A DNA stretch of 64,000 nucleotides, taken from the NCBI GenBank assembly GCA_015231755.1, contig JADGAZ010000002.1, positions 1 to 64,000 of the forward strand, in the 5' to 3' direction. Positions within the stretch are counted from its first letter, which is position 1, and each line of letters opens with the position of its first letter. The notes below the pieces were generated by a model. The model worked only from the letters and a program-made list of their open reading frames with translations, made no database searches and was not told where the DNA came from. Shown piece after piece: positions 45,917-58,699 of this stretch. Both the position numbers and the translations under genes were made by a program. This DNA is from Magnetococcales bacterium. Lineage in GTDB: Bacteria; Pseudomonadota; Magnetococcia; Magnetococcales; Magnetaquicoccaceae.

Positions 45917-47119
45917 TCAATGCCCAGCAGTTTCAGACTTCTCAGACGCTGGAGACCCGAATTTGTCATTAAAGATTTTCCTTATTTTCTCTGTGCACTC
46001 TACATAGTTAGAAGCATTAACAGAGCTAAGATCCAAGTAATGGCCATTCCTGCTCTCAGAACCAAGATTTGCCGCAAGCTGATCATAAATTTCTTTAAAT
46101 TTCTCCACAATAATTCGTTCCCTAATATGCAGAGTCGAGGCAATCACATATTCTTTTCTATAAAAATGAATGAAAGCCTCACGATTATCTATAATAACCA
46201 ACTCAAAAGCATTCTCTTCTGGTGTCAAAAAAAGCTCAAAAGGACGCCCCATAAAATCAGCCATATGCGTCAGCACATCATGAATTTTATCCTTATTGTT
46301 TAGTGAAACAATTCTATAATACTTCTTCAACGGAGGTCTGCCATCTCGTCCCAGAACTCGATGTCGAATCGCTGTGACATATTCATTTTGCGACAAAACC
46401 GAGTCCGGGAAAAATCTACTTGACCTGACCTCCTCGTTTGCAAGCAAAGTTGCTTGCGTCAAAGCCTTGAAAGCATCTTCCTGCCCTTCAATATATCTCG
46501 CATCAATCGTTGATTGATCTTTCTTAAGAAGCATGGACTCAATATTATCCATCTTCTTGATTAGAGAAATCATATCATTTTTATAATTTGAGAAGAATGT
46601 CGCGGTATCTCCTGCCGATGGACTGGCACCTAAAGAAAAAATATTAGATAAAGGATTCTCTACGACAAAATCACCAGATATAATTCTATCAATTTTTTCA
46701 TCAATTCGTGACTTAAGCTGCAACATATTTTCAGATTGTGAAATATCATCATAAAATATCACATGATCATCAGCAATATCAAAAGGAATTTTACCCGCCC
46801 CTCCCTGATCCGATCTCTTTTCCATAATCAGGACGACTGGTTTTAGTATAGCATGACATATAGCCAATTCATAAAACACGTTAGGGTTATGATTCGTCAG
46901 ATCTGCAACCATAAAATCAGAATCTCTAATTGATCTAAGAATTGATGACGTAATTTTCGAAACAATAAGCTTGTCTGCTCGCATAAAATCAATCGCAGCT
47001 CCCGCCTTTCTCCTTTCACGTGAAATCACATCAAAGATATTCTTGAAAAGTGCATCACATTTCTTCCTAACGTTAGATCCTTCATCTCCAAGTTCACAAA
47101 TAACAAAACATTTTTTCAT
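45917..47119 (-). CDS. AT-rich protein with nucleoside-deoxyribosyltransferase/TIR-like N-terminal domain
   Basis: This 400-residue protein has AAGGAG eight bases before the ATG at 47119. Residues 1-130 look like the nucleoside 2-deoxyribosyltransferase/TIR-like fold: CFVICELGDEGSNVRKK, FMRADKLIVSKI and DFMVADLTNHNPNVFYELA, with Glu84 in the place of the catalytic acid of such glycosidases. Residues 180-215 are coiled coil, and the remaining 190 residues are unknown. The gene is AT-rich, unlike its neighbours, and lies beside the Septu-like pair and Uup. Proteins with this domain can cleave NAD or nucleosides in defence or signalling, but I recognise no specific system. Confidence 0.68.
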   Translation of the reverse strand: MKKCFVICELGDEGSNVRKKCDALFKNIFDVISRERRKAGAAIDFMRADKLIVSKITSSILRSIRDSDFMVADLTNHNPNVFYELAICHAILKPVVLIMEKRSDQGGAGKIPFDIADDHVIFYDDISQSENMLQLKSRIDEKIDRIISGDFVVENPLSNIFSLGASPSAGDTATFFSNYKNDMISLIKKMDNIESMLLKKDQSTIDARYIEGQEDAFKALTQATLLANEEVRSSRFFPDSVLSQNEYVTAIRHRVLGRDGRPPLKKYYRIVSLNNKDKIHDVLTHMADFMGRPFELFLTPEENAFELVIIDNREAFIHFYRKEYVIASTLHIRERIIVEKFKEIYDQLAANLGSESRNGHYLDLSSVNASNYVECTEKIRKIFNDKFGSPASEKSETAGH

Positions 47120-50565: not shown

Positions 50566-50690
50566 GGAGTCATCCAATACCACGACGCACGCAAGAAAAA
50601 TAATACGGCTCGGAAATTGCATCATTTTTACCAAGTCCACCTCGCACGTGGCGCCCATCGACCCCCCATGCATCCAAGAGACCCCAAACC

Positions 50691-51743
50691 ATGGCGGAAC
50701 TGCAACTGGATGGCACCAAGCTCACCTTTCACGTCAAGGAGTTGCTGGCGTGGAAACAGGGCGGGTTCGTGCCGCCGATTCTGGTGGAAGTGAGTCCCAC
50801 CAATCTGTGCAACCACCGGTGCGACTTCTGCGCCTATGAATATCTGGACCGCAACGGCACCTATCTGGACATGGACCGCTTCCGGGTCATTCTCGACGAG
50901 TTGGCGGCCATGGGGACCAAGTCCCTGTTTTATTCCGGCGAGGGGGAACCGCTGATTCACAAGGGCTTGCCCGACATCATCGTGCATGCCGGGGGCATGG
51001 GGTTCGAGCAGGCGCTGAACACCAACGGGGCGCGACTGCTGCCCGCCGTGGCGGATCGAATTCTGCCCTGGCTCTCCTGGGTGCGCTGGAGCATCAACGG
51101 GGTCTCCCGGGAGGATTACGCCCTCCATCACCGGGTATCGCCACGACAGTTCGATCTGGTGATGAACAACCTGACCCATGCGGCCCAGGTCAAGCGCGAT
51201 CTGGGACTGCCGGTGACCATCGGGGTACAGTTTGTCTATCTGGGACAAAGCGCCGCTACGGTGATCGCCCTGGCCGAACGCATGAAGGCCATCGGGGTGA
51301 GCTATTTCGCCGTCAAGCAGTTCAACCGTCATCCCAACAACCCCTTCGCGCTGGAAACCCCGCCGCCCATCGAAGAACTGCTCACCATTTTGCAACTCAA
51401 CGACGCGAACTTTCACGCCACGGTCCGTCTGGGGGCGTTGGAATGGCAAGCCCCCCGGGAGTACCAACGCTGTCAGGCCCTGCCCTTTTTTGCCGAGATC
51501 GTGGCCAATGGGGATGTTTATGCCTGTGGTCCCCATCTGGGCAATCCGGCTTTTTGTTACGGCAACATCCACGACACCTCTTTCGCCAGCTTGTGGAGCG
51601 GGGCCGGTCGGCGCCAAGTGGAGGCACACGTCTGCTCCATCCCGGATCTGGACGCGGTGTGCATGCCCAATTGCCGCCTGCACGAGATCAACCGCTTCTT
51701 GTGGAAGCTTTCCCATCCGCCGGAACATCCGGATCTGGTCTGA
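50691..51743 (+). CDS. Radical SAM enzyme with C-terminal SPASM/Twitch-like cysteines
   Basis: This is a 350-residue protein. The radical SAM triad CNHRCDFC (CxxxCxxC, near residue 43) lies in VEVSPTNLCNHRCDFCAYEY. FYSGEGEPLIHKG is the SAM-binding GGE-type motif. The C-terminal part has five further cysteines: one in YQRCQALPFF, one in GDVYACG, one in AFCYGNIH and a pair in CMPNCRLHEIN. This suits a SPASM/Twitch auxiliary iron-sulfur cluster. It lies between neuCBA and a shortened paralogue, so it probably modifies a surface sugar or lipid precursor. The substrate is unknown. Confidence 0.87.
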   Translation: MAELQLDGTKLTFHVKELLAWKQGGFVPPILVEVSPTNLCNHRCDFCAYEYLDRNGTYLDMDRFRVILDELAAMGTKSLFYSGEGEPLIHKGLPDIIVHAGGMGFEQALNTNGARLLPAVADRILPWLSWVRWSINGVSREDYALHHRVSPRQFDLVMNNLTHAAQVKRDLGLPVTIGVQFVYLGQSAATVIALAERMKAIGVSYFAVKQFNRHPNNPFALETPPPIEELLTILQLNDANFHATVRLGALEWQAPREYQRCQALPFFAEIVANGDVYACGPHLGNPAFCYGNIHDTSFASLWSGAGRRQVEAHVCSIPDLDAVCMPNCRLHEINRFLWKLSHPPEHPDLV

Positions 51744-51764
51744 CACAATCGGAAATCACACACC

Positions 51765-52439
51765 ATGGACGCTTTGACTCTGGACGGCTTCACCCTGTTT
51801 CACCATTTGGACGCCCTGCGCCAGTGGGAACTGGATCAACCCTTTGCGCCACTCCTGGTGGAGATCCACCCGATTGCGCCCAACCCGAAGGATCCACTCC
51901 TGCCCGGAGAGCGCTTCTTGAATCTGGTCCGGGAATTGGGAGCGATGGGGATCGGCAGTGTGCTGATCGCCGGACCCGGAGAGCCGTTGCACCATCCCGA
52001 CACCCTGGAGGCGTTGCGCCTGGGGAGGGAACTCGGCCTGCGCATGACTCTGCTCACCGCCTCGGACCCCTGGCGTCGGGTGGAGGAGTCACAACGTCCC
52101 ACCGGCATCCGGGTGCTGTTCCGGGAGAGAATTCCCGCTCCGACGACTGCCGAACCTCGGGAGTATGCCCGTTGCCTGGGTCTGCCGTTCATCGCCTTGG
52201 TGACCGCCGACGCCAAGGTGCGGAGCTGCTCGGATCCCGGCGCCGGACCGGAATCGATCTGCGGCGACTTGAATCACGAGGCGTTCTCCACCCTGTGGCC
52301 CGCGGCCCAGCCCCTGCGTACCCGTCTGAGCTGGGAACTGGATCCCCGGATGGTCTGCCCCGTCACCTGTCGTCATCACGGCATCAACCGGGTGTTGTGG
52401 CGTCATCTGCACCCGCCGGAACATGTGGCTTTTATTTGA
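51765..52439 (+). CDS. Shortened radical-SAM paralogue lacking the CxxxCxxC cluster motif
   Basis: This 224-residue protein is clearly homologous to its upstream neighbour. FAPLLVEIHPIAP aligns with VPPILVEVSPTNL, MGIGSVLIAGPGEPLHHPDT with MGTKSLFYSGEGEPLIHKGL, and NRVLWRHLHPPEHVAFI with NRFLWKLSHPPEHPDLV. Where the neighbour has CNHRCDFC this protein has PNPKDPLL, so it cannot hold the radical SAM cluster. About 120 residues of the barrel are missing. Yet all five C-terminal cysteines are kept (YARCLGLPF, VRSCSD, ESICGDLN, CPVTC). The frame is intact and codon use is normal, so it is probably a functional partner or scaffold rather than debris. Confidence 0.82.
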   Translation: MDALTLDGFTLFHHLDALRQWELDQPFAPLLVEIHPIAPNPKDPLLPGERFLNLVRELGAMGIGSVLIAGPGEPLHHPDTLEALRLGRELGLRMTLLTASDPWRRVEESQRPTGIRVLFRERIPAPTTAEPREYARCLGLPFIALVTADAKVRSCSDPGAGPESICGDLNHEAFSTLWPAAQPLRTRLSWELDPRMVCPVTCRHHGINRVLWRHLHPPEHVAFI

Positions 52440-52442
52440 ATA

Positions 52443-52520
52443 TTATCGTGATTTTTTATAATCAAAACCTTGGGGACTTCGTCCCAAAACCCCTACCGGG
52501 GACCGTACCGGTCCCCGGAC
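52443..52520. repeat. Hairpin cluster related to half of the 19.1-kb MITE-like element
   Basis: The strand reads AATCAAAACCTTGGGGACTT followed by CGTCCCAAAACCCC, then CCGGGGACC/GGTCCCCGG, a nine-base perfect stem at 52496-52504 and 52510-52518. The reverse complement CCAAGGTTTTGATTATAAAAAA closely matches CCCAGGGTTTTGATTGTAAAAA in the element at 19061-19200. It looks like a solitary half of the same family. It may also act as a terminator for the upstream radical SAM pair. Confidence 0.55.
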
Positions 52521-52563
52521 CCCTGCAATATTAAAGAATAATCCGGGTGGAAAGAGGGTCCAC

Positions 52564-53193
52564 GTGCGCATCGGGATTGATTTCGACAACACCCTGACCG
52601 ATATGGATACCCTGCTGACCCGGCTGGTGCGGGAACAGGGATGGTTCGACGCCGACGCGCCGCTGCCCACCGACAAAACCACCATCCGCCAGCGCATACG
52701 CGCTCTGGACCACGGCGAAAGCAAATGGCAGCATCTTCAAGCCGCCCTGTATGGTCCCCGGTTGCACACCGCACCCTTGCGGGCCGGGGCCGGATCGTTT
52801 CTGCTACGGGCCAAAGAGCGCCACGTGACCATCTTCATCGTCAGCCACAAAACCCGTTTCGCCCGCCGCGACGAAGCCCAATGCCACGATCTGCGCATCC
52901 TGGCCACGGCGTGGATGACCCGTCAGGGACTCTTCGACCCCCACCGCTTCGCCGTGGACCCGGAGCATCTGCATTTCGCCGACACCCGCGCCGAAAAAGC
53001 CCAACGGATCGCCCAGTTGCGCTGTGATCACTTCATCGACGATCTGCCGGAACTGTTCGCCGAGCCGGGATTTCCCGCCGCGACCAACCGACTGCTCCTG
53101 GATCCGACCGGCGCCCATGGTCACGGCTTCGACTATCCGGTCTTCGCCTCCTGGAGCGCCCTCGAAGCCACGCTGCTGGGATCCCCCCCATGA
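52564..53193 (+). CDS. HAD-superfamily phosphatase-like protein
   Basis: This 209-residue protein starts at a GTG at 52564. The HAD motif I is IGIDFDNTLTDMD with the Asp-x-Asp nucleophile pair, motif II is FIVSHKT, and the late acidic motif is DHFIDDLPELF. A helical cap of about 90 residues follows motif I. Such proteins remove phosphates from small molecules or sugars. The stop overlaps the start of the APH-like gene (ATGA), so a linked phosphatase/kinase step in sugar activation is likely (inference). Confidence 0.8.
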   Translation: MRIGIDFDNTLTDMDTLLTRLVREQGWFDADAPLPTDKTTIRQRIRALDHGESKWQHLQAALYGPRLHTAPLRAGAGSFLLRAKERHVTIFIVSHKTRFARRDEAQCHDLRILATAWMTRQGLFDPHRFAVDPEHLHFADTRAEKAQRIAQLRCDHFIDDLPELFAEPGFPAATNRLLLDPTGAHGHGFDYPVFASWSALEATLLGSPP

Positions 53194-54212
53194 CCCCCGA
53201 ACTGCCCCGCGTCGCGGTGGAAAAACTGCTCGAAGAGCCGCTGTTGACCTGGGAGCCGATCCGACGGGGGGGCAACAACCGGCTGTATCGCATCACCACC
53301 CCGACCCGCACCCTGGCGCTCAAACACCACACCCGCCAGTCGGAAGACCCGAGGGACCGCCAGAAGACCGAACGCATCGCCCTCACCTTTTTCACCGCTC
53401 ATCCCCATCTGCCCACCCCCCGTCTGGTGGCCTGGGAGGAGGCATCCGGACTCACGGTGCTGGAGTGGATCGACGGCGAGCGGATCCAGACCCCCTCCAC
53501 CGACGACCTGGATCAGGCATTGGCGTTCATCGCCGCTCTGGCAGCTCTGGGGAAAGCACCGGGAAGCGAGGCCATTCCTCCGGCCTCCGGGGCATGTCTG
53601 TCTCCGGGGATGCTGCTGCGCCAGGTGCAAGAACGGACCACACGCCTGCAAGCCGCCGCCAACACCCATCCCGAACTGGCAGCCTGGACACGCCAGCGGT
53701 TTCTGCCCGCCAGGACCCGCATTCTCGACCGCTCGGTCACGGCCTTTAAGCGCCACGGCCTGAAGACCGAAGCGGAGATAGCCCGCTCCTGTCGGCTGTT
53801 GAGTCCGTCGGATTTCGGGTTTCACAACGCCCTGCGGCAGCCGGATGGACGCCTTGTCTTTCTGGACTTTGAATATTTCGGCTGGGACGATCCGGTCAAG
53901 CTGAGCTGGGATTTTCAGATGCATCCGGGAATGAATCTTGCTACGCATTGTGCCCGGTCGGATGCCAACCTGGGCACACGTTTTGCCGAGGGCATGCAAC
54001 GGCTGTACGGCGCGGATGACACCTTTGCCCGGCGCCACACCCTTTACCGCCCCCTGATCGGGCTGTGCTGGTGCATGATCGTGTTGAACGAATTCGCCCG
54101 GGACGGCTGGGAACGACGGGCACTGGCCACGGGCGAAACCGACCCGGATCAGGTCTGCGCCCGTCAACTGGCCAAGGCCACGGCCCTGCTGGACACTTTG
54201 GAGCCTCTTTAG
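53190..54212 (+). CDS. APH-type (aminoglycoside phosphotransferase-fold) kinase
   Basis: This is a 340-residue protein with an eukaryote-like kinase fold: the nucleotide loop IRRGGNNRLYRITTP, the ATP-binding Lys in TLALKHH, LTVLEWIDGE as hinge, the catalytic loop LLSPSDFGFHNAL (Asp within SDFGFHN) and the metal site FLDFEYFGWDDP. The family phosphorylates antibiotics, choline, homoserine or sugars; in this glycan cluster a sugar or amino-alcohol substrate is more likely than resistance. It overlaps the HAD gene upstream by four bases and precedes the transketolase pair. Confidence 0.82.
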   Translation: MTPELPRVAVEKLLEEPLLTWEPIRRGGNNRLYRITTPTRTLALKHHTRQSEDPRDRQKTERIALTFFTAHPHLPTPRLVAWEEASGLTVLEWIDGERIQTPSTDDLDQALAFIAALAALGKAPGSEAIPPASGACLSPGMLLRQVQERTTRLQAAANTHPELAAWTRQRFLPARTRILDRSVTAFKRHGLKTEAEIARSCRLLSPSDFGFHNALRQPDGRLVFLDFEYFGWDDPVKLSWDFQMHPGMNLATHCARSDANLGTRFAEGMQRLYGADDTFARRHTLYRPLIGLCWCMIVLNEFARDGWERRALATGETDPDQVCARQLAKATALLDTLEPL

Positions 54213-54216
54213 AAAA

Positions 54217-55059
54217 ATGCGTGATTCCACCCCCCCCCTTTCCAATCCTCCCATTCTCCTGGACGAACGCTCCCGCCGGTTGCGCCTGCTGGTGTTGCGG
54301 GCCATGGAACAAGGCGGTCGGGGCCATCCCGGCCCGGCCCTCTCCCTGATCGAAATCCTGCGGGTGCTCTACGACGACATTCTGCGTTACCGTCCCGATC
54401 AGCCGCAGTGGCCGGAGCGGGACCGCTGCATTTTAAGCAAGGGTCACGGCTGTCTGGCCCTTTACGCCCTGCTGGCCGACAAGGGATTCTTTCCCGTGGA
54501 AGCCCTGGACACCTTCTGCCGTTTCGACTCCTTTTTGGGGGGACATCCGGAACGGGGCAAAATTCCGGGGGTGGAGGCCTCCACCGGTTCTTTGGGACAT
54601 GGTCTGTCCATCGGCGTGGGTCAGGCGCTGGCGGCCCGGTTGCAGGGACGCTCCCACCGGGTGGTGGTGGTCATGGGGGATGGGGAGATCAACGAAGGCT
54701 CGGTGTGGGAGGCGGCCATGACCGCGGCCAAACACCGGCTCGACGCCCTGACCGCCGTGGTGGATTACAACAAGATGCAATCCTACGGCCCGACGCGCGA
54801 GGTGCTGGATCTGGAACCCCTGACCGACAAATGGCGCGCCTTTGGTTTCACCACCCGGGAGGTGGATGGACACGATGTCGCCGCCTTGCGCACCACCTTG
54901 TCCACGCCCCCCGAACCCGGACGGCCCACGGCCATCATTGCCCACACGGTCAAGGGCAAAGGCATTCCGGAAGCCGAACACAATCCGGAATGGCATCATA
55001 AATCCCGCATTCCCGCGGCGCTGTTTTCCGCCATGCGGCAGGCACTGGAGACCCCCTAA
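54217..55059 (+). CDS. Transketolase-like N-terminal subunit
   Basis: This 280-residue thiamine-diphosphate-binding half has GGRGHPGPALSLIEILRVLY, RDRCILSKGHGCLALYALLA, GGHPERGKIPGVEASTGSLG followed by HGLSIGVGQA, and the cofactor motif VVMGDGEINEGSVWEAAMTA with VVDYNKMQ. Its partner subunit starts two bases after the stop. Split transketolases in polysaccharide clusters transfer two-carbon units onto unusual sugars, distinct from the central-metabolism enzyme (family knowledge, applied by inference). No full-length transketolase is in the window. Confidence 0.9.
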   Translation: MRDSTPPLSNPPILLDERSRRLRLLVLRAMEQGGRGHPGPALSLIEILRVLYDDILRYRPDQPQWPERDRCILSKGHGCLALYALLADKGFFPVEALDTFCRFDSFLGGHPERGKIPGVEASTGSLGHGLSIGVGQALAARLQGRSHRVVVVMGDGEINEGSVWEAAMTAAKHRLDALTAVVDYNKMQSYGPTREVLDLEPLTDKWRAFGFTTREVDGHDVAALRTTLSTPPEPGRPTAIIAHTVKGKGIPEAEHNPEWHHKSRIPAALFSAMRQALETP

Positions 55060-55060
55060 G

Positions 55061-56005
55061 ATGCGCAAAAGCTCTCTCGACGCGGTGTTCCGGCTCGCGC
55101 AGCAAGACGAACGGGTGATCTTTCTGGGGTCCGACCTGGGGGTCGGCACGCTGCAAGCCTTTCGGGACGCCTTCCCGGAACGGTTTTTCATGGAGGGAAT
55201 CGCCGAACAAAACCTGATCGGCATGGCGGCGGGACTGGCCATGGAGGGGTTCATTCCCTATGTCAACACCATTGCCAGTTTCCTCACCCGGCGCTGTCTG
55301 GAGCAGATCACCATCGATTTATGCCTGCACCATCTGCCGGTGCGGCTGATCGGCAATGGTGGTGGTCTGGTCTACGCCCCTTTGGGGCCGACCCATCTGG
55401 CCACAGACGATCTGGCCTTGATGCGCGCCCAGCCCCACATGACCGTACTCGCCCCCTGCGACGCCATCCAGATGCGCGCCTGCATGGCCCAGACCCTGCA
55501 CCATCCCGGCCCGATCTACATCCGTCTGGCCAAGGGGGGGGACCGGGTGGTCTTTCCGGAAGAGATGCCGGTGACCCTGGGCCAGGGGATCACCTTGCGC
55601 CCGGGAGACCAGGCGCTCCTGATCACCACCGGGGTGATGGCGCAACGGGCTTTGGAGGCCGCCTTGATCCTGGAACACCACCACATCTCCTGCGGCGTGG
55701 TGCATCTGCACACGGTCAAGCCCCTGGACGACACCCTGATCTTCAACGCGGCCCGGACCTTTCCCCTGCTGGTCACCCTGGAAGAACACTCCTTAGTGGG
55801 CGGTCTGGGGTCGGCGGTGGCGGAACGGCTGGCGGATCAGGGACCCTATCCCGGTCCGCGCCTGTTGCGGCTGGGACTGCCGGACTCTTTCCCCCACCAC
55901 TACGGCTCGCAAGAGGCCCATCTGGCGGCGTTGGGCCTGGATCCGGAAGCCATCGCCCGACGGGTCGCCCTGACCCTGGACACCCTGACCAGGAGTCAAC
56001 CATGA
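55061..56005 (+). CDS. Transketolase-like C-terminal subunit
   Basis: This is a 314-residue protein from the ATG at 55061, one base after the preceding stop codon ends; a longer frame from 54842 is only read-through of another frame. It has the pyrimidine-binding domain with FMEGIAEQNLIGMAAGLAME (catalytic Glu in GIAEQN), LIGNGGGLVYAPLGPTHLAT and the C-terminal domain VTLEEHSLVGGLGSAVAERL. It joins the N-terminal subunit to make the active site. The stop overlaps the start of the second radical SAM gene. Confidence 0.9.
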   Translation: MRKSSLDAVFRLAQQDERVIFLGSDLGVGTLQAFRDAFPERFFMEGIAEQNLIGMAAGLAMEGFIPYVNTIASFLTRRCLEQITIDLCLHHLPVRLIGNGGGLVYAPLGPTHLATDDLALMRAQPHMTVLAPCDAIQMRACMAQTLHHPGPIYIRLAKGGDRVVFPEEMPVTLGQGITLRPGDQALLITTGVMAQRALEAALILEHHHISCGVVHLHTVKPLDDTLIFNAARTFPLLVTLEEHSLVGGLGSAVAERLADQGPYPGPRLLRLGLPDSFPHHYGSQEAHLAALGLDPEAIARRVALTLDTLTRSQP

Positions 56006-57066
56006 GCATCTTGTACAGCAGTTTGAAATTCTTGCGTTTCCAGGAACATCTGGCCGCCGTGAAGGAACGGCGTGTGGTGGCTCCGGTCCATCTGCGCATC
56101 AAGCCCACCAACCGCTGCAACCACAACTGCTGGTACTGCGCCTACAAGGTGGACAACCTCGCCTTAGGCGAGGAGATGGTGGAATCCGACACCATTCCAC
56201 CGGAGAAAATGTTCGCGCTGGTGGAAGAGTTCATCACCCTGGGGGTCAAGGCGATCACCTTTTCCGGCGGGGGGGAACCTCTGCTTTACAAGCCACTGCC
56301 CGAAGTGGTGGAACGGCTGGCCGCCGGGGGCATCCGGGTGGCCACCCTCACCAACGGCGCCAATCTCAAGGGGCGCATGGCCGATGCCCTGGCCCGGCAC
56401 GCCACCTGGGTGCGCATCTCCATGGACGGCTGGGACGACGCCAGTTACGCCAAGGCCCGGGGACTCAAAGGGGATCCCTTCACCCAACTGCTGAACAACA
56501 TCGCCGCCTTCACGGCCCAAGACACCCGCTGTGTGCTGGGGGTGAGTTTCATCGTCACGGAAGAAAACCATATCCATCTGCCCCAGGTGTGCGCCCTGCT
56601 CAAGGAGGCCGGAGCCAATCATGTCAAGCTGTCCGGCGTGGTGGTGGCCAACGACGGCGCTGGCAACAACCGCTATCACGCCGATTTCTCCCATCAGGTC
56701 AAAGAGCGGATCCGTGCGGCCCAGACCCTGAACGACCACCGTTTCACCATCATCAACCACTACCATGAACTGGAAGAGCGGTTCGACAAGGACTATACTT
56801 TCTGTCCATTCTTGTCGTTTCTCACGGTGATCGGCGCGGATTGTCAGGTCTACACCTGTCAGGACAAGGCCTACCGCGCCAGCGGACGCCTCGGCTCCAT
56901 CCGGGAACGCACCTTTACCGACTTCTGGTTTTCCGAGGAGAACCGCCAGCGGCTGTTCGGCCTGAATCCCGCGCAAGAGTGCGGCCACCATTGCGTGGCC
57001 CATGGCAAGAATCTGGCGATTCTGGATTATCTGTCCATCGACCCGGAGCACGGGTTGTTCGTCTAA
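56002..57066 (+). CDS. Second radical SAM enzyme with C-terminal auxiliary cysteines
   Basis: This 354-residue protein starts at the ATG at 56002 (ATGA overlap with the transketolase gene). The triad CNHNCWYC near residue 38 is in IKPTNRCNHNCWYCAYK, and TFSGGGEPLLYKPLPEVV is the SAM-binding segment. Further cysteines occur at YTFCPFLSF, GADCQVYTCQDK and ECGHHCVAH, typical of an auxiliary cluster domain. It resembles the radical SAM protein at 50691 along its length, so the two are probably paralogues acting on related intermediates. The substrate is unknown. Confidence 0.87.
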   Translation: MSILYSSLKFLRFQEHLAAVKERRVVAPVHLRIKPTNRCNHNCWYCAYKVDNLALGEEMVESDTIPPEKMFALVEEFITLGVKAITFSGGGEPLLYKPLPEVVERLAAGGIRVATLTNGANLKGRMADALARHATWVRISMDGWDDASYAKARGLKGDPFTQLLNNIAAFTAQDTRCVLGVSFIVTEENHIHLPQVCALLKEAGANHVKLSGVVVANDGAGNNRYHADFSHQVKERIRAAQTLNDHRFTIINHYHELEERFDKDYTFCPFLSFLTVIGADCQVYTCQDKAYRASGRLGSIRERTFTDFWFSEENRQRLFGLNPAQECGHHCVAHGKNLAILDYLSIDPEHGLFV

Positions 57067-57115
57067 CAAAAAACGGGTCATCAACCCCAAAGCTTGTGGA
57101 GCGTCAACGTCAACC

Positions 57116-57778
57116 GTGGCCATTCAAAATTTCATCACCCCGCTGCACACCCGCGCCCAAAGGGATTATGTGGCGCGGGTGGTGGAACACGACAAGGCCG
57201 CATGCGCCACCATCGCCAAACAGTGGGGCGCGGAGTACTGGGACGGTCCCCGCCAATATGGCTATGGGGGCTACCGCTACGATGGCCGCTGGCTGCCGGT
57301 GGCCCAACGCATGGCCGCCCACTACGGCCTCACCCCGGAAAGCCGGGTGCTGGATGTGGGATGCGGCAAGGGTTATCTGTTGTATGAATTCACCCGCGCC
57401 GTGCCCGGCATCACCGTGGCCGGGCTGGATCTCTCGTCCTACGCCCTCACACACGCCAAGCCGGAACTCAAACCCCATCTGACCCTGGGCAACGCCACGG
57501 CCCTGCCCTATGCGGATCACAGCTTCGATCTGGTCTACTCCATCACCACCTTGCACAATCTCTACGCCCCCCAGCTCGATCAATCCCTGCGGGAGATGCA
57601 GCGGGTGGGCAAGGGACACAAGCTGATCGTGGTGGAGTCCTACCGCAACGAACGGGAAAAGGCCAATCTGCTCTACTGGCAATTGACCTGCGAAAGCTTC
57701 TTCACCCCGGAAGAGTGGCAATGGTGGTTCGACCGGTGCGGTTATGACGGCGACGCCGAATTCATCTATTTCGAGTAG
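57116..57778 (+). CDS. Class I SAM-dependent methyltransferase
   Basis: This 220-residue protein starts at a GTG at 57116; the frame is open farther upstream inside the preceding gene, but the sequence there is not protein-like. Motif I is RVLDVGCGKGYLLYEFTRA, motif II is VAGLDLSSYAL, and later motifs are GNATALPYADHSFDLVYSIT and LREMQRVGKGHKLIVVESYR. The N-terminal YWDGPRQYGYGGYRYDGRW is reminiscent of methyltransferases found in LPS and sugar clusters. It follows the second radical SAM gene and precedes an RmlD-like gene by three bases, so it likely methylates the same glycan intermediate (inference). Confidence 0.85.
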   Translation: MAIQNFITPLHTRAQRDYVARVVEHDKAACATIAKQWGAEYWDGPRQYGYGGYRYDGRWLPVAQRMAAHYGLTPESRVLDVGCGKGYLLYEFTRAVPGITVAGLDLSSYALTHAKPELKPHLTLGNATALPYADHSFDLVYSITTLHNLYAPQLDQSLREMQRVGKGHKLIVVESYRNEREKANLLYWQLTCESFFTPEEWQWWFDRCGYDGDAEFIYFE

Positions 57779-57781
57779 ATC

Positions 57782-58699
57782 ATGTCCAAAAAGATTCTGA
57801 TTGTCGGCGGTTCGGGTTACATCGGACGCCAACTGTTCGCCCGGCTGGGCAGAGACCGGGCCGTGGCCACCCATCACACCCACCCGTTTCCCGGCAGCGT
57901 GGCCTTCGATCCGCTCACCACCCAGCCCGAAAGCTGGCTGACCGCCCATGGTCCTTTTTCCACCGCCATTCTCCTGATGGGGGCCACCCGGGTGGATGCC
58001 TGCTCGAAAGACCCCGCCGGCACGGACCCCATCAACCGCGACGCGGTGCAATCCGTGATCCGGGCCTGTCTGAAGCTGGGCATTCATCCCCTGTTCACCT
58101 CCTCGGACGTGGTGTTCGACGGTCACAAAGGCCATTACGCCGAATCCGACCCGCCGGCTCCCCTGCTCCAGTATGGCCGCCAGAAACACCACATCGAACA
58201 ATTCCTGCACGCCACCAACGCGCCCCACACCCTGATCCGCCTGCCCAAGGTCTACGACAGCGATCCGCAAGGATCCTCCCTGCTGGCCAACTGGTGGCAG
58301 GCCATCCAACGCCGCGAACCCATCCGCAGCGCCGCGGACCGGATTTTCTCCCCGGTGCATGTGGCAGATGTGGTCGAAGGCCTGATCACCCTCACACAAT
58401 CCGGCCAAAGCGGCACCTGGCATCTGGGGGGACCGGTGGCGGTGTCGATGGCCGGGCTGTTCGGGCTGTTCGCCGCGGGGCTGCGAAAGGCCGACGCTTC
58501 CATTCCGGCTCCGGACCACACGGTGTGCGGCATCAACGATCTGGGATTCCGGGAGCGCTGGCCCTTGGACATCTCCTTGAATTCCACCCGCTGGATCCAG
58601 ACCACCGGCATCGCCCCCCAGACACCGGACGCGGTGGTGGATGCGTTTATCGCACGCTTGAGATTGCCTTTTGAGAGCCAATGCGGTAAATCTGCCTGA
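57782..58699 (+). CDS. RmlD-like NAD(P)-dependent sugar reductase/epimerase
   Basis: This is a 305-residue extended SDR with the Rossmann motif KKILIVGGSGYIGRQLFARL, FTSSDVVFDGHKGHYAESDP, the catalytic Tyr-x3-Lys in QYGRQKHHIEQFL, and the RmlD-type ending TWHLGGPVAVSMAGL with GFRERWPLDISLNSTRW. RmlD proteins reduce dTDP-4-keto sugars. No rmlA, rmlB or rmlC lies near, so the substrate may be another keto sugar made by this cluster. It ends the run of modification genes before the chain-length protein. Confidence 0.82.
   Translation: MSKKILIVGGSGYIGRQLFARLGRDRAVATHHTHPFPGSVAFDPLTTQPESWLTAHGPFSTAILLMGATRVDACSKDPAGTDPINRDAVQSVIRACLKLGIHPLFTSSDVVFDGHKGHYAESDPPAPLLQYGRQKHHIEQFLHATNAPHTLIRLPKVYDSDPQGSSLLANWWQAIQRREPIRSAADRIFSPVHVADVVEGLITLTQSGQSGTWHLGGPVAVSMAGLFGLFAAGLRKADASIPAPDHTVCGINDLGFRERWPLDISLNSTRWIQTTGIAPQTPDAVVDAFIARLRLPFESQCGKSA

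Follow-up and report, generated by a model that had tools for sequence, protein, structure and literature searches.

The eukaryotic diphthamide enzyme Dph1-Dph2 is an asymmetric heterodimer of two Fe-S subunits, in which SAM is probably bound and cleaved at the Dph1 cluster, and for whose Dph2 cluster a role in activation by the electron carrier Dph3 has been suggested (PMC11048331). It is a non-canonical radical SAM enzyme, with CX3CX2C absent from both subunits. The lipoyl synthase LipS1/LipS2 consists of two radical SAM proteins that are usually encoded together and work together (PMC10332631); each is described as a radical SAM protein inserting one sulfur, and neither as a degenerate subunit. 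The SPASM enzyme PapB is reported to depend on electron transfer between molecules, probably by way of its second auxiliary cluster (PMC10470005), with the cluster lying within the same enzyme and the transfer made by redox proteins or small molecules. NCBIfam also holds a pseudo-SAM/SPASM family, TIGR04347, which, judged by its name, comprises radical SAM/SPASM homologues without a working SAM site; its model is untruncated, at about 390 positions.

The locus reported here, from a draft Magnetococcales genome (G000), holds an intact 350-residue radical SAM/SPASM(twitch) enzyme (LRG) followed by a 224-residue homologue (SML) that has no catalytic triad. LRG has the CX3CX2C motif that both Dph subunits lack, and the likeness of the pair to Dph1-Dph2 implies no sequence relation; SML is degenerate, unlike either LipS protein, and is shortened where TIGR04347, a protein of the same kind, is not; and where PapB is served by redox proteins or small molecules, the partner proposed here would be a dedicated homologue. 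The sequence-only reading of this DNA knew of no described system of this form, which is too strong a statement, as pseudo-SAM/SPASM proteins and asymmetric radical SAM heterodimers are already known. What the searches made did not find is a truncated homologue retained beside an intact classical radical SAM enzyme as a cassette, and a literature search for radical SAM proteins turned pseudoenzymes, or for degenerate paralogues acting as partners, with most subscription papers outside its coverage, found no matching system. The features are as follows, in coordinates of the window, that is, the whole 64,000-nucleotide stretch that was analysed.

50566..50690, + strand: 125-bp spacer from NeuA to LRG, the 5' bound of the two-gene cassette (from the sequence; missing in G001 and G002)
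50691..51743, + strand: LRG, radical SAM/SPASM(twitch) enzyme, 350 aa (Pfam, cysteine invariance, dN/dS)
Codons at 50808, 50820 and 50829, + strand: intact CX3CX2C triad of LRG, C40/C44/C47
Within 50691..51743, + strand: GEGEPL of LRG, a SAM-binding-type motif
Codons at 51471, 51525, 51660 and 51672, + strand: auxiliary cysteines of LRG, C261/C279/C324/C328
51765..52439, + strand: SML, 224-aa homologue without catalytic triad, a half barrel plus SPASM/twitch-type end (hhalign, three intact copies, dN/dS)
51879..51902, + strand: PNPKDPLL of SML, standing where the CX3CX2C loop would be (alignments)
52059..52103, + strand: SML junction, an unconserved linker where part of the barrel is gone (dN/dS of about 1 in the G010 comparison; profile alignment)
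52173..52370, + strand: presumed auxiliary [4Fe-4S] ligands of SML, C137 (52173), C155 (52227), C198 (52356) and C202 (52368), in family-invariant columns
52260..52262, + strand: C166 of SML, conserved among the three SML copies only
52440..52563, + strand: 124-bp spacer 3' of SML with a GC-rich inverted-repeat element, the other cassette bound (from the sequence)
56002..57066, + strand: rSAM2, the operon's second radical SAM/SPASM enzyme, found also in genomes without LRG and SML

The pair stands in a run of + strand genes for a NeuC-type UDP-GlcNAc 2-epimerase, NeuB, a NeuA/PseF-type cytidylyltransferase, LRG, SML, a HAD-like protein, an APH-type kinase, a transketolase split into N and C halves, rSAM2, a methyltransferase, an RmlD-like reductase, a Wzz-like protein and HldE. 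NeuC and NeuB pass NCBIfam cut-offs, and the other operon genes were named from domains or by eye; we infer that the operon makes a nonulosonate-type surface sugar. The set from the HAD-like protein to the reductase (window 52564-58699) is found again, complete or partial, in several Magnetococcales families (loci L073, L076, L077, L090, L093, L094 and L098), in one case in a genome that is a single contig, and it looks like an undescribed sugar pathway in which a two-part transketolase would be used along with a radical SAM enzyme. The interval between an ABC-F gene and NeuC varies among close relatives, holding a 400-aa protein in G000 (window 45917-47119, - strand; no match in Pfam or PADLOC), a NACHT-domain protein in G006 (L021 2806-5151, - strand) and nothing in G010, and this slot is possibly a hot spot for defence genes. 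In G010 a type II restriction-modification pair, an XamI-like nuclease and an Eco57I-type methylase, lies between NeuC and NeuB (L023 3200-6390) with a short broken repeat of the start of NeuB on its upstream side, as if it had inserted there.

LRG itself matches Pfam Radical_SAM at E 4e-13 and SPASM at E 4e-5 (24.2 bits against a cut-off of 21.5). By sequence its nearest solved relatives are DesII (E 2.5e-10), BlsE (cytosylglucuronate decarboxylase) and PqqE, radical SAM/SPASM-twitch enzymes on sugars, nucleotides or peptides that have the same CX3CX2C motif and from which SML differs in having no catalytic features at all. An identity with DesII was ruled out by the NCBIfam model, which scores LRG at 46 bits against a cut-off of 450.

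That the small protein matches the large one at both ends, as had been noticed from the letters alone, holds in two comparisons. BLASTP aligns LRG with SML in two blocks, residues 1-111 (29% identity, E 4e-9) and 246-346 (37%, E 2e-18), and hhalign aligns a three-sequence SML profile with a profile of the enzyme family over the full length, 1-224 against 1-350 in 224 columns, at 99.96% probability and E 4.3e-38. Judged from these alignments, SML shares descent with radical SAM enzymes from end to end. The missing part of the barrel, also claimed in the earlier reading, comes to about 127 residues (LRG ~113-239), and the region of the CX3CX2C loop is 13 residues shorter in SML. Standard models no longer recognise the protein: PF04055 Radical_SAM scores 14.2 bits, under the gathering score of 29.5, neither PF13186 SPASM nor TIGR04347 matches at E<=0.1, and a search of solved structures by sequence gave nothing significant. 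SML thus has the common descent of a radical SAM protein but neither CX3CX2C, nor a sufficient PF04055 score, nor a partial TIM barrel with SAM-binding motifs; of the marks of a SPASM/twitch domain it has four auxiliary cysteines in family register but no PF13186 match. Elsewhere in the same genome (contig C14, 106481-107545), as well as in several related genomes, there is a full-length relative of TIGR04347, scoring 315 bits against a cut-off of 525.

The pattern of cysteine loss and retention is selective. When 56 related enzymes are aligned, the triad cysteines and C261, C279, C324 and C328 of LRG are each invariant (56/56); the triad is absent from all three known SML copies, while all three have the four auxiliary cysteines, with the spacing Cx17C ... 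Cx3C that is found in LRG. The replacement of CxxxCxxC by PNPKDPLL is confirmed, with C40, C44 and C47 of LRG falling on these eight residues, and the stretch is itself not conserved, reading PNPKDPPL and PAPEKTPL in the orthologues. The statement that all five C-terminal cysteines were kept stands for the four family-invariant ones but not for the fifth: LRG has six cysteines in this region (261, 279, 289, 315, 324 and 328), C289 aligns with I165 of SML and C166 of SML with Y290 of LRG, one column apart beside an invariant glycine, and at neither position is a cysteine conserved across the family. Where LRG has GEGEPL, two SML copies have GPGEPL and the third GPDDPL, and therefore SML is unlikely to bind SAM. 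The four-ligand arrangement, for its part, would be compatible with one fully ligated cluster.

A protein without catalytic parts that is confined to one genus and evolves faster than the enzyme beside it could be a decaying copy heading for loss, and its occurrence in draft genomes could raise the suspicion of an assembly or base-calling artefact. The latter is hardly conceivable and was refuted by the presence of SML in three separate genomes, intact in each, with the copies in G006 and G010 at 91% and 57% identity to that in G000. In G000 both reading frames are free of frameshifts and 21 bp apart. Pairwise dN/dS for SML is 0.30 (G000-G006), 0.31 (G000-G010) and 0.25 (G006-G010), with purifying selection significant by Fisher's test in the comparisons with G006 (p 8e-5) and G010 (p 5e-12), and the constraint is even over the N-terminal and SPASM-like parts, with the linker alone unconstrained in the G010 comparison. 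The dN/dS of SML stays well below 1 across a divergence of about 1.2 in dS, with only in-frame indels and no stops; in a neutral simulation with 246 random substitutions, 0.2% of frames stayed open. Amino-acid evolution is indeed 5-6 times faster in SML than in LRG (dN/dS 0.06-0.10), but in dN/dS SML equals the neighbouring HAD gene (0.28-0.37). Decay is rejected on these values, on the open frame and on the retention of the four ligands in all three copies, and we regard it as very improbable. SML is therefore a working gene under purifying selection, as the sequence-only reading had argued from the intact frame.

The distribution of SML follows that of LRG. Among 48 Magnetococcales genomes, full-length matches to the SML profile occur only in G000, G006 and G010, three species of one genus, and LRG orthologues (87-98% identity) occur in the same three genomes only, the next match being at 38%. 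Extending the profile search to 399 genomes of the phylum gave, beyond these three, only partial matches inside longer reading frames, the pattern that full-length radical SAM proteins would give, and a scan of GTDB species genomes gave the G006 orthologue only. The small gene is thus present and intact in all three genomes that have the large one, and is found only there; the frameshift or absence named in the sequence-only reading as refuting it did not turn up. The intergenic gap of 21 bp in G000 keeps the reading frame, and readthrough of the LRG stop codon was considered; it was rejected on the gap of 23 bp in G006, where the frame is not conserved. In G010 the two genes are on different contigs, LRG ending 43 bp short of the end of C180 and SML starting about 85 bp from the end of C311, and each contig end has one half of a repeat, of which there are 116 and 80 copies genome-wide (counted as two related 25-base parts with up to 2 mismatches; a reversed control gave none). 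At several other places in that genome one half follows the other, ordered and oriented alike, the two starts lying about 55-70 bp from each other. Because the contig ends hold halves of one repeat, adjacency of LRG and SML in G010 is a strong inference, with a repeat element lying between the genes. GC-rich inverted-repeat elements of this sort are found between genes in the window (52470-52535) as well as on both G010 contigs, and they seem to break assemblies.

Two congeners, G001 and G002, have the same operon (NeuC-NeuB-NeuA-HAD-APH-TK-rSAM2-MT-SDR) with neither LRG nor SML, and in them NeuA and HAD overlap; LRG and SML, with the spacers that flank them, therefore behave as a single cassette whose two genes come and go together. 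Three carriers within one genus amount to about one gain, so the co-occurrence may be a single event. The same comparison bears on the idea that SML serves the sugar operon as an Fe-S protein in its own right, for instance as a redox sensor or as a helper for rSAM2 or the methyltransferase, and does not belong to LRG. The larger operon does hold such candidate partners, but G001 and G002 keep the rest of it, including rSAM2, without SML, which tracks LRG only, and we consider this explanation quite improbable.

The origin of SML is less clear than its retention. Its best-scoring match is LRG (57-59 bits, the next enzyme scoring 45), and constraining the two to group costs 0.4 log-likelihood units (AU p 0.33; 0.325), an equally small cost being incurred by grouping SML with another Magnetococcales group (AU p 0.492). 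An apparent joining of SML with rSAM2 (87/87) was taken to be a possible case of long-branch attraction, and a new tree was built with rSAM2 left out. The description of SML as a paralogue of this enzyme is thus right in the broad sense of homology, while the trees speak neither for nor against its descent from the LRG gene itself by tandem duplication and fit an origin from another radical SAM protein of the Magnetococcales as well. In either case the ancestor of SML would be a radical SAM/SPASM protein of LRG's family that lost internal parts. Distant LRG homologues (31-38%) occur in other genera, often upstream of the HAD-APH-TK set, and no SML was found with them among the 48 Magnetococcales genomes.

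Taken together, full-length homology, loss of the triad with retention of the auxiliary ligands in all three copies, purifying selection, co-occurrence with LRG and joint absence from G001 and G002 suggest that SML is probably a non-catalytic helper subunit of LRG; counted against this are the restriction to one genus, the fast evolution of SML, the lack of a Pfam SPASM match, weakly scored models and the repeat between the genes in G010. SML would have a half barrel, built from the first three beta-alpha units plus a single late strand, and after it a twitch-type fold with one [4Fe-4S] cluster on C137, C155, C198 and C202. An AlphaFold model of SML (pLDDT 56.5, pTM 0.59) has the expected beta-alpha order in its better-scored residues 30-121 (10-residue pLDDT means mostly 67-83) and forms a beta hairpin among the cysteines, in a region that is weakly scored in parts. 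Foldseek found nothing in the PDB for it at E<=0.001, and the fold proposed here is therefore not founded on this model; a fused LRG-SML model is of low confidence (pLDDT 37.9).

Our tentative preference, held short of conviction, is that SML is a catalytically dead accessory subunit with a single auxiliary-type cluster whose likeliest job is keeping LRG active. It may dock on LRG through the regions that are conserved best, namely the N-terminal helix (residues 1-36) and the final 27 residues, and would either pass electrons to or from the LRG clusters through its own fully ligated cluster or stabilise the enzyme. An electron relay is plausible by analogy, and attractive because auxiliary clusters are implicated in intermolecular transfer in PapB and the Dph2 cluster has been suggested to serve activation. 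On the main rival view, which we think rather unlikely, SML would support LRG structurally or position its substrate, and any cluster in SML would hold the fold together and carry no electrons. Clusters of SPASM/twitch enzymes can be structural or contact substrate, the conserved helix and C-terminal tail resemble interfaces, and the lost half barrel could expose an open surface; a purely structural role would, however, leave unexplained why four ligands were retained amid divergence to 57% identity. Returning to the accessory subunit, a stronger version would have a canonical radical SAM/SPASM enzyme work only as a heterodimer, its partner being a hollowed-out homologue that has an auxiliary cluster as its only cofactor and acts as a dedicated electron relay. 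This would be a bacterial parallel to the Dph1-Dph2 asymmetry, evolved separately in the classical radical SAM fold; we consider it unlikely.

For SPASM/twitch radical SAM enzymes, the role of the auxiliary clusters is in large part an open question. A protein such as SML, which has kept the auxiliary-cluster end and lost the SAM cluster beside an intact enzyme, would allow an auxiliary cluster to be studied alone and added back in trans, and would be a rare pseudoenzyme subunit within the classical radical SAM superfamily.
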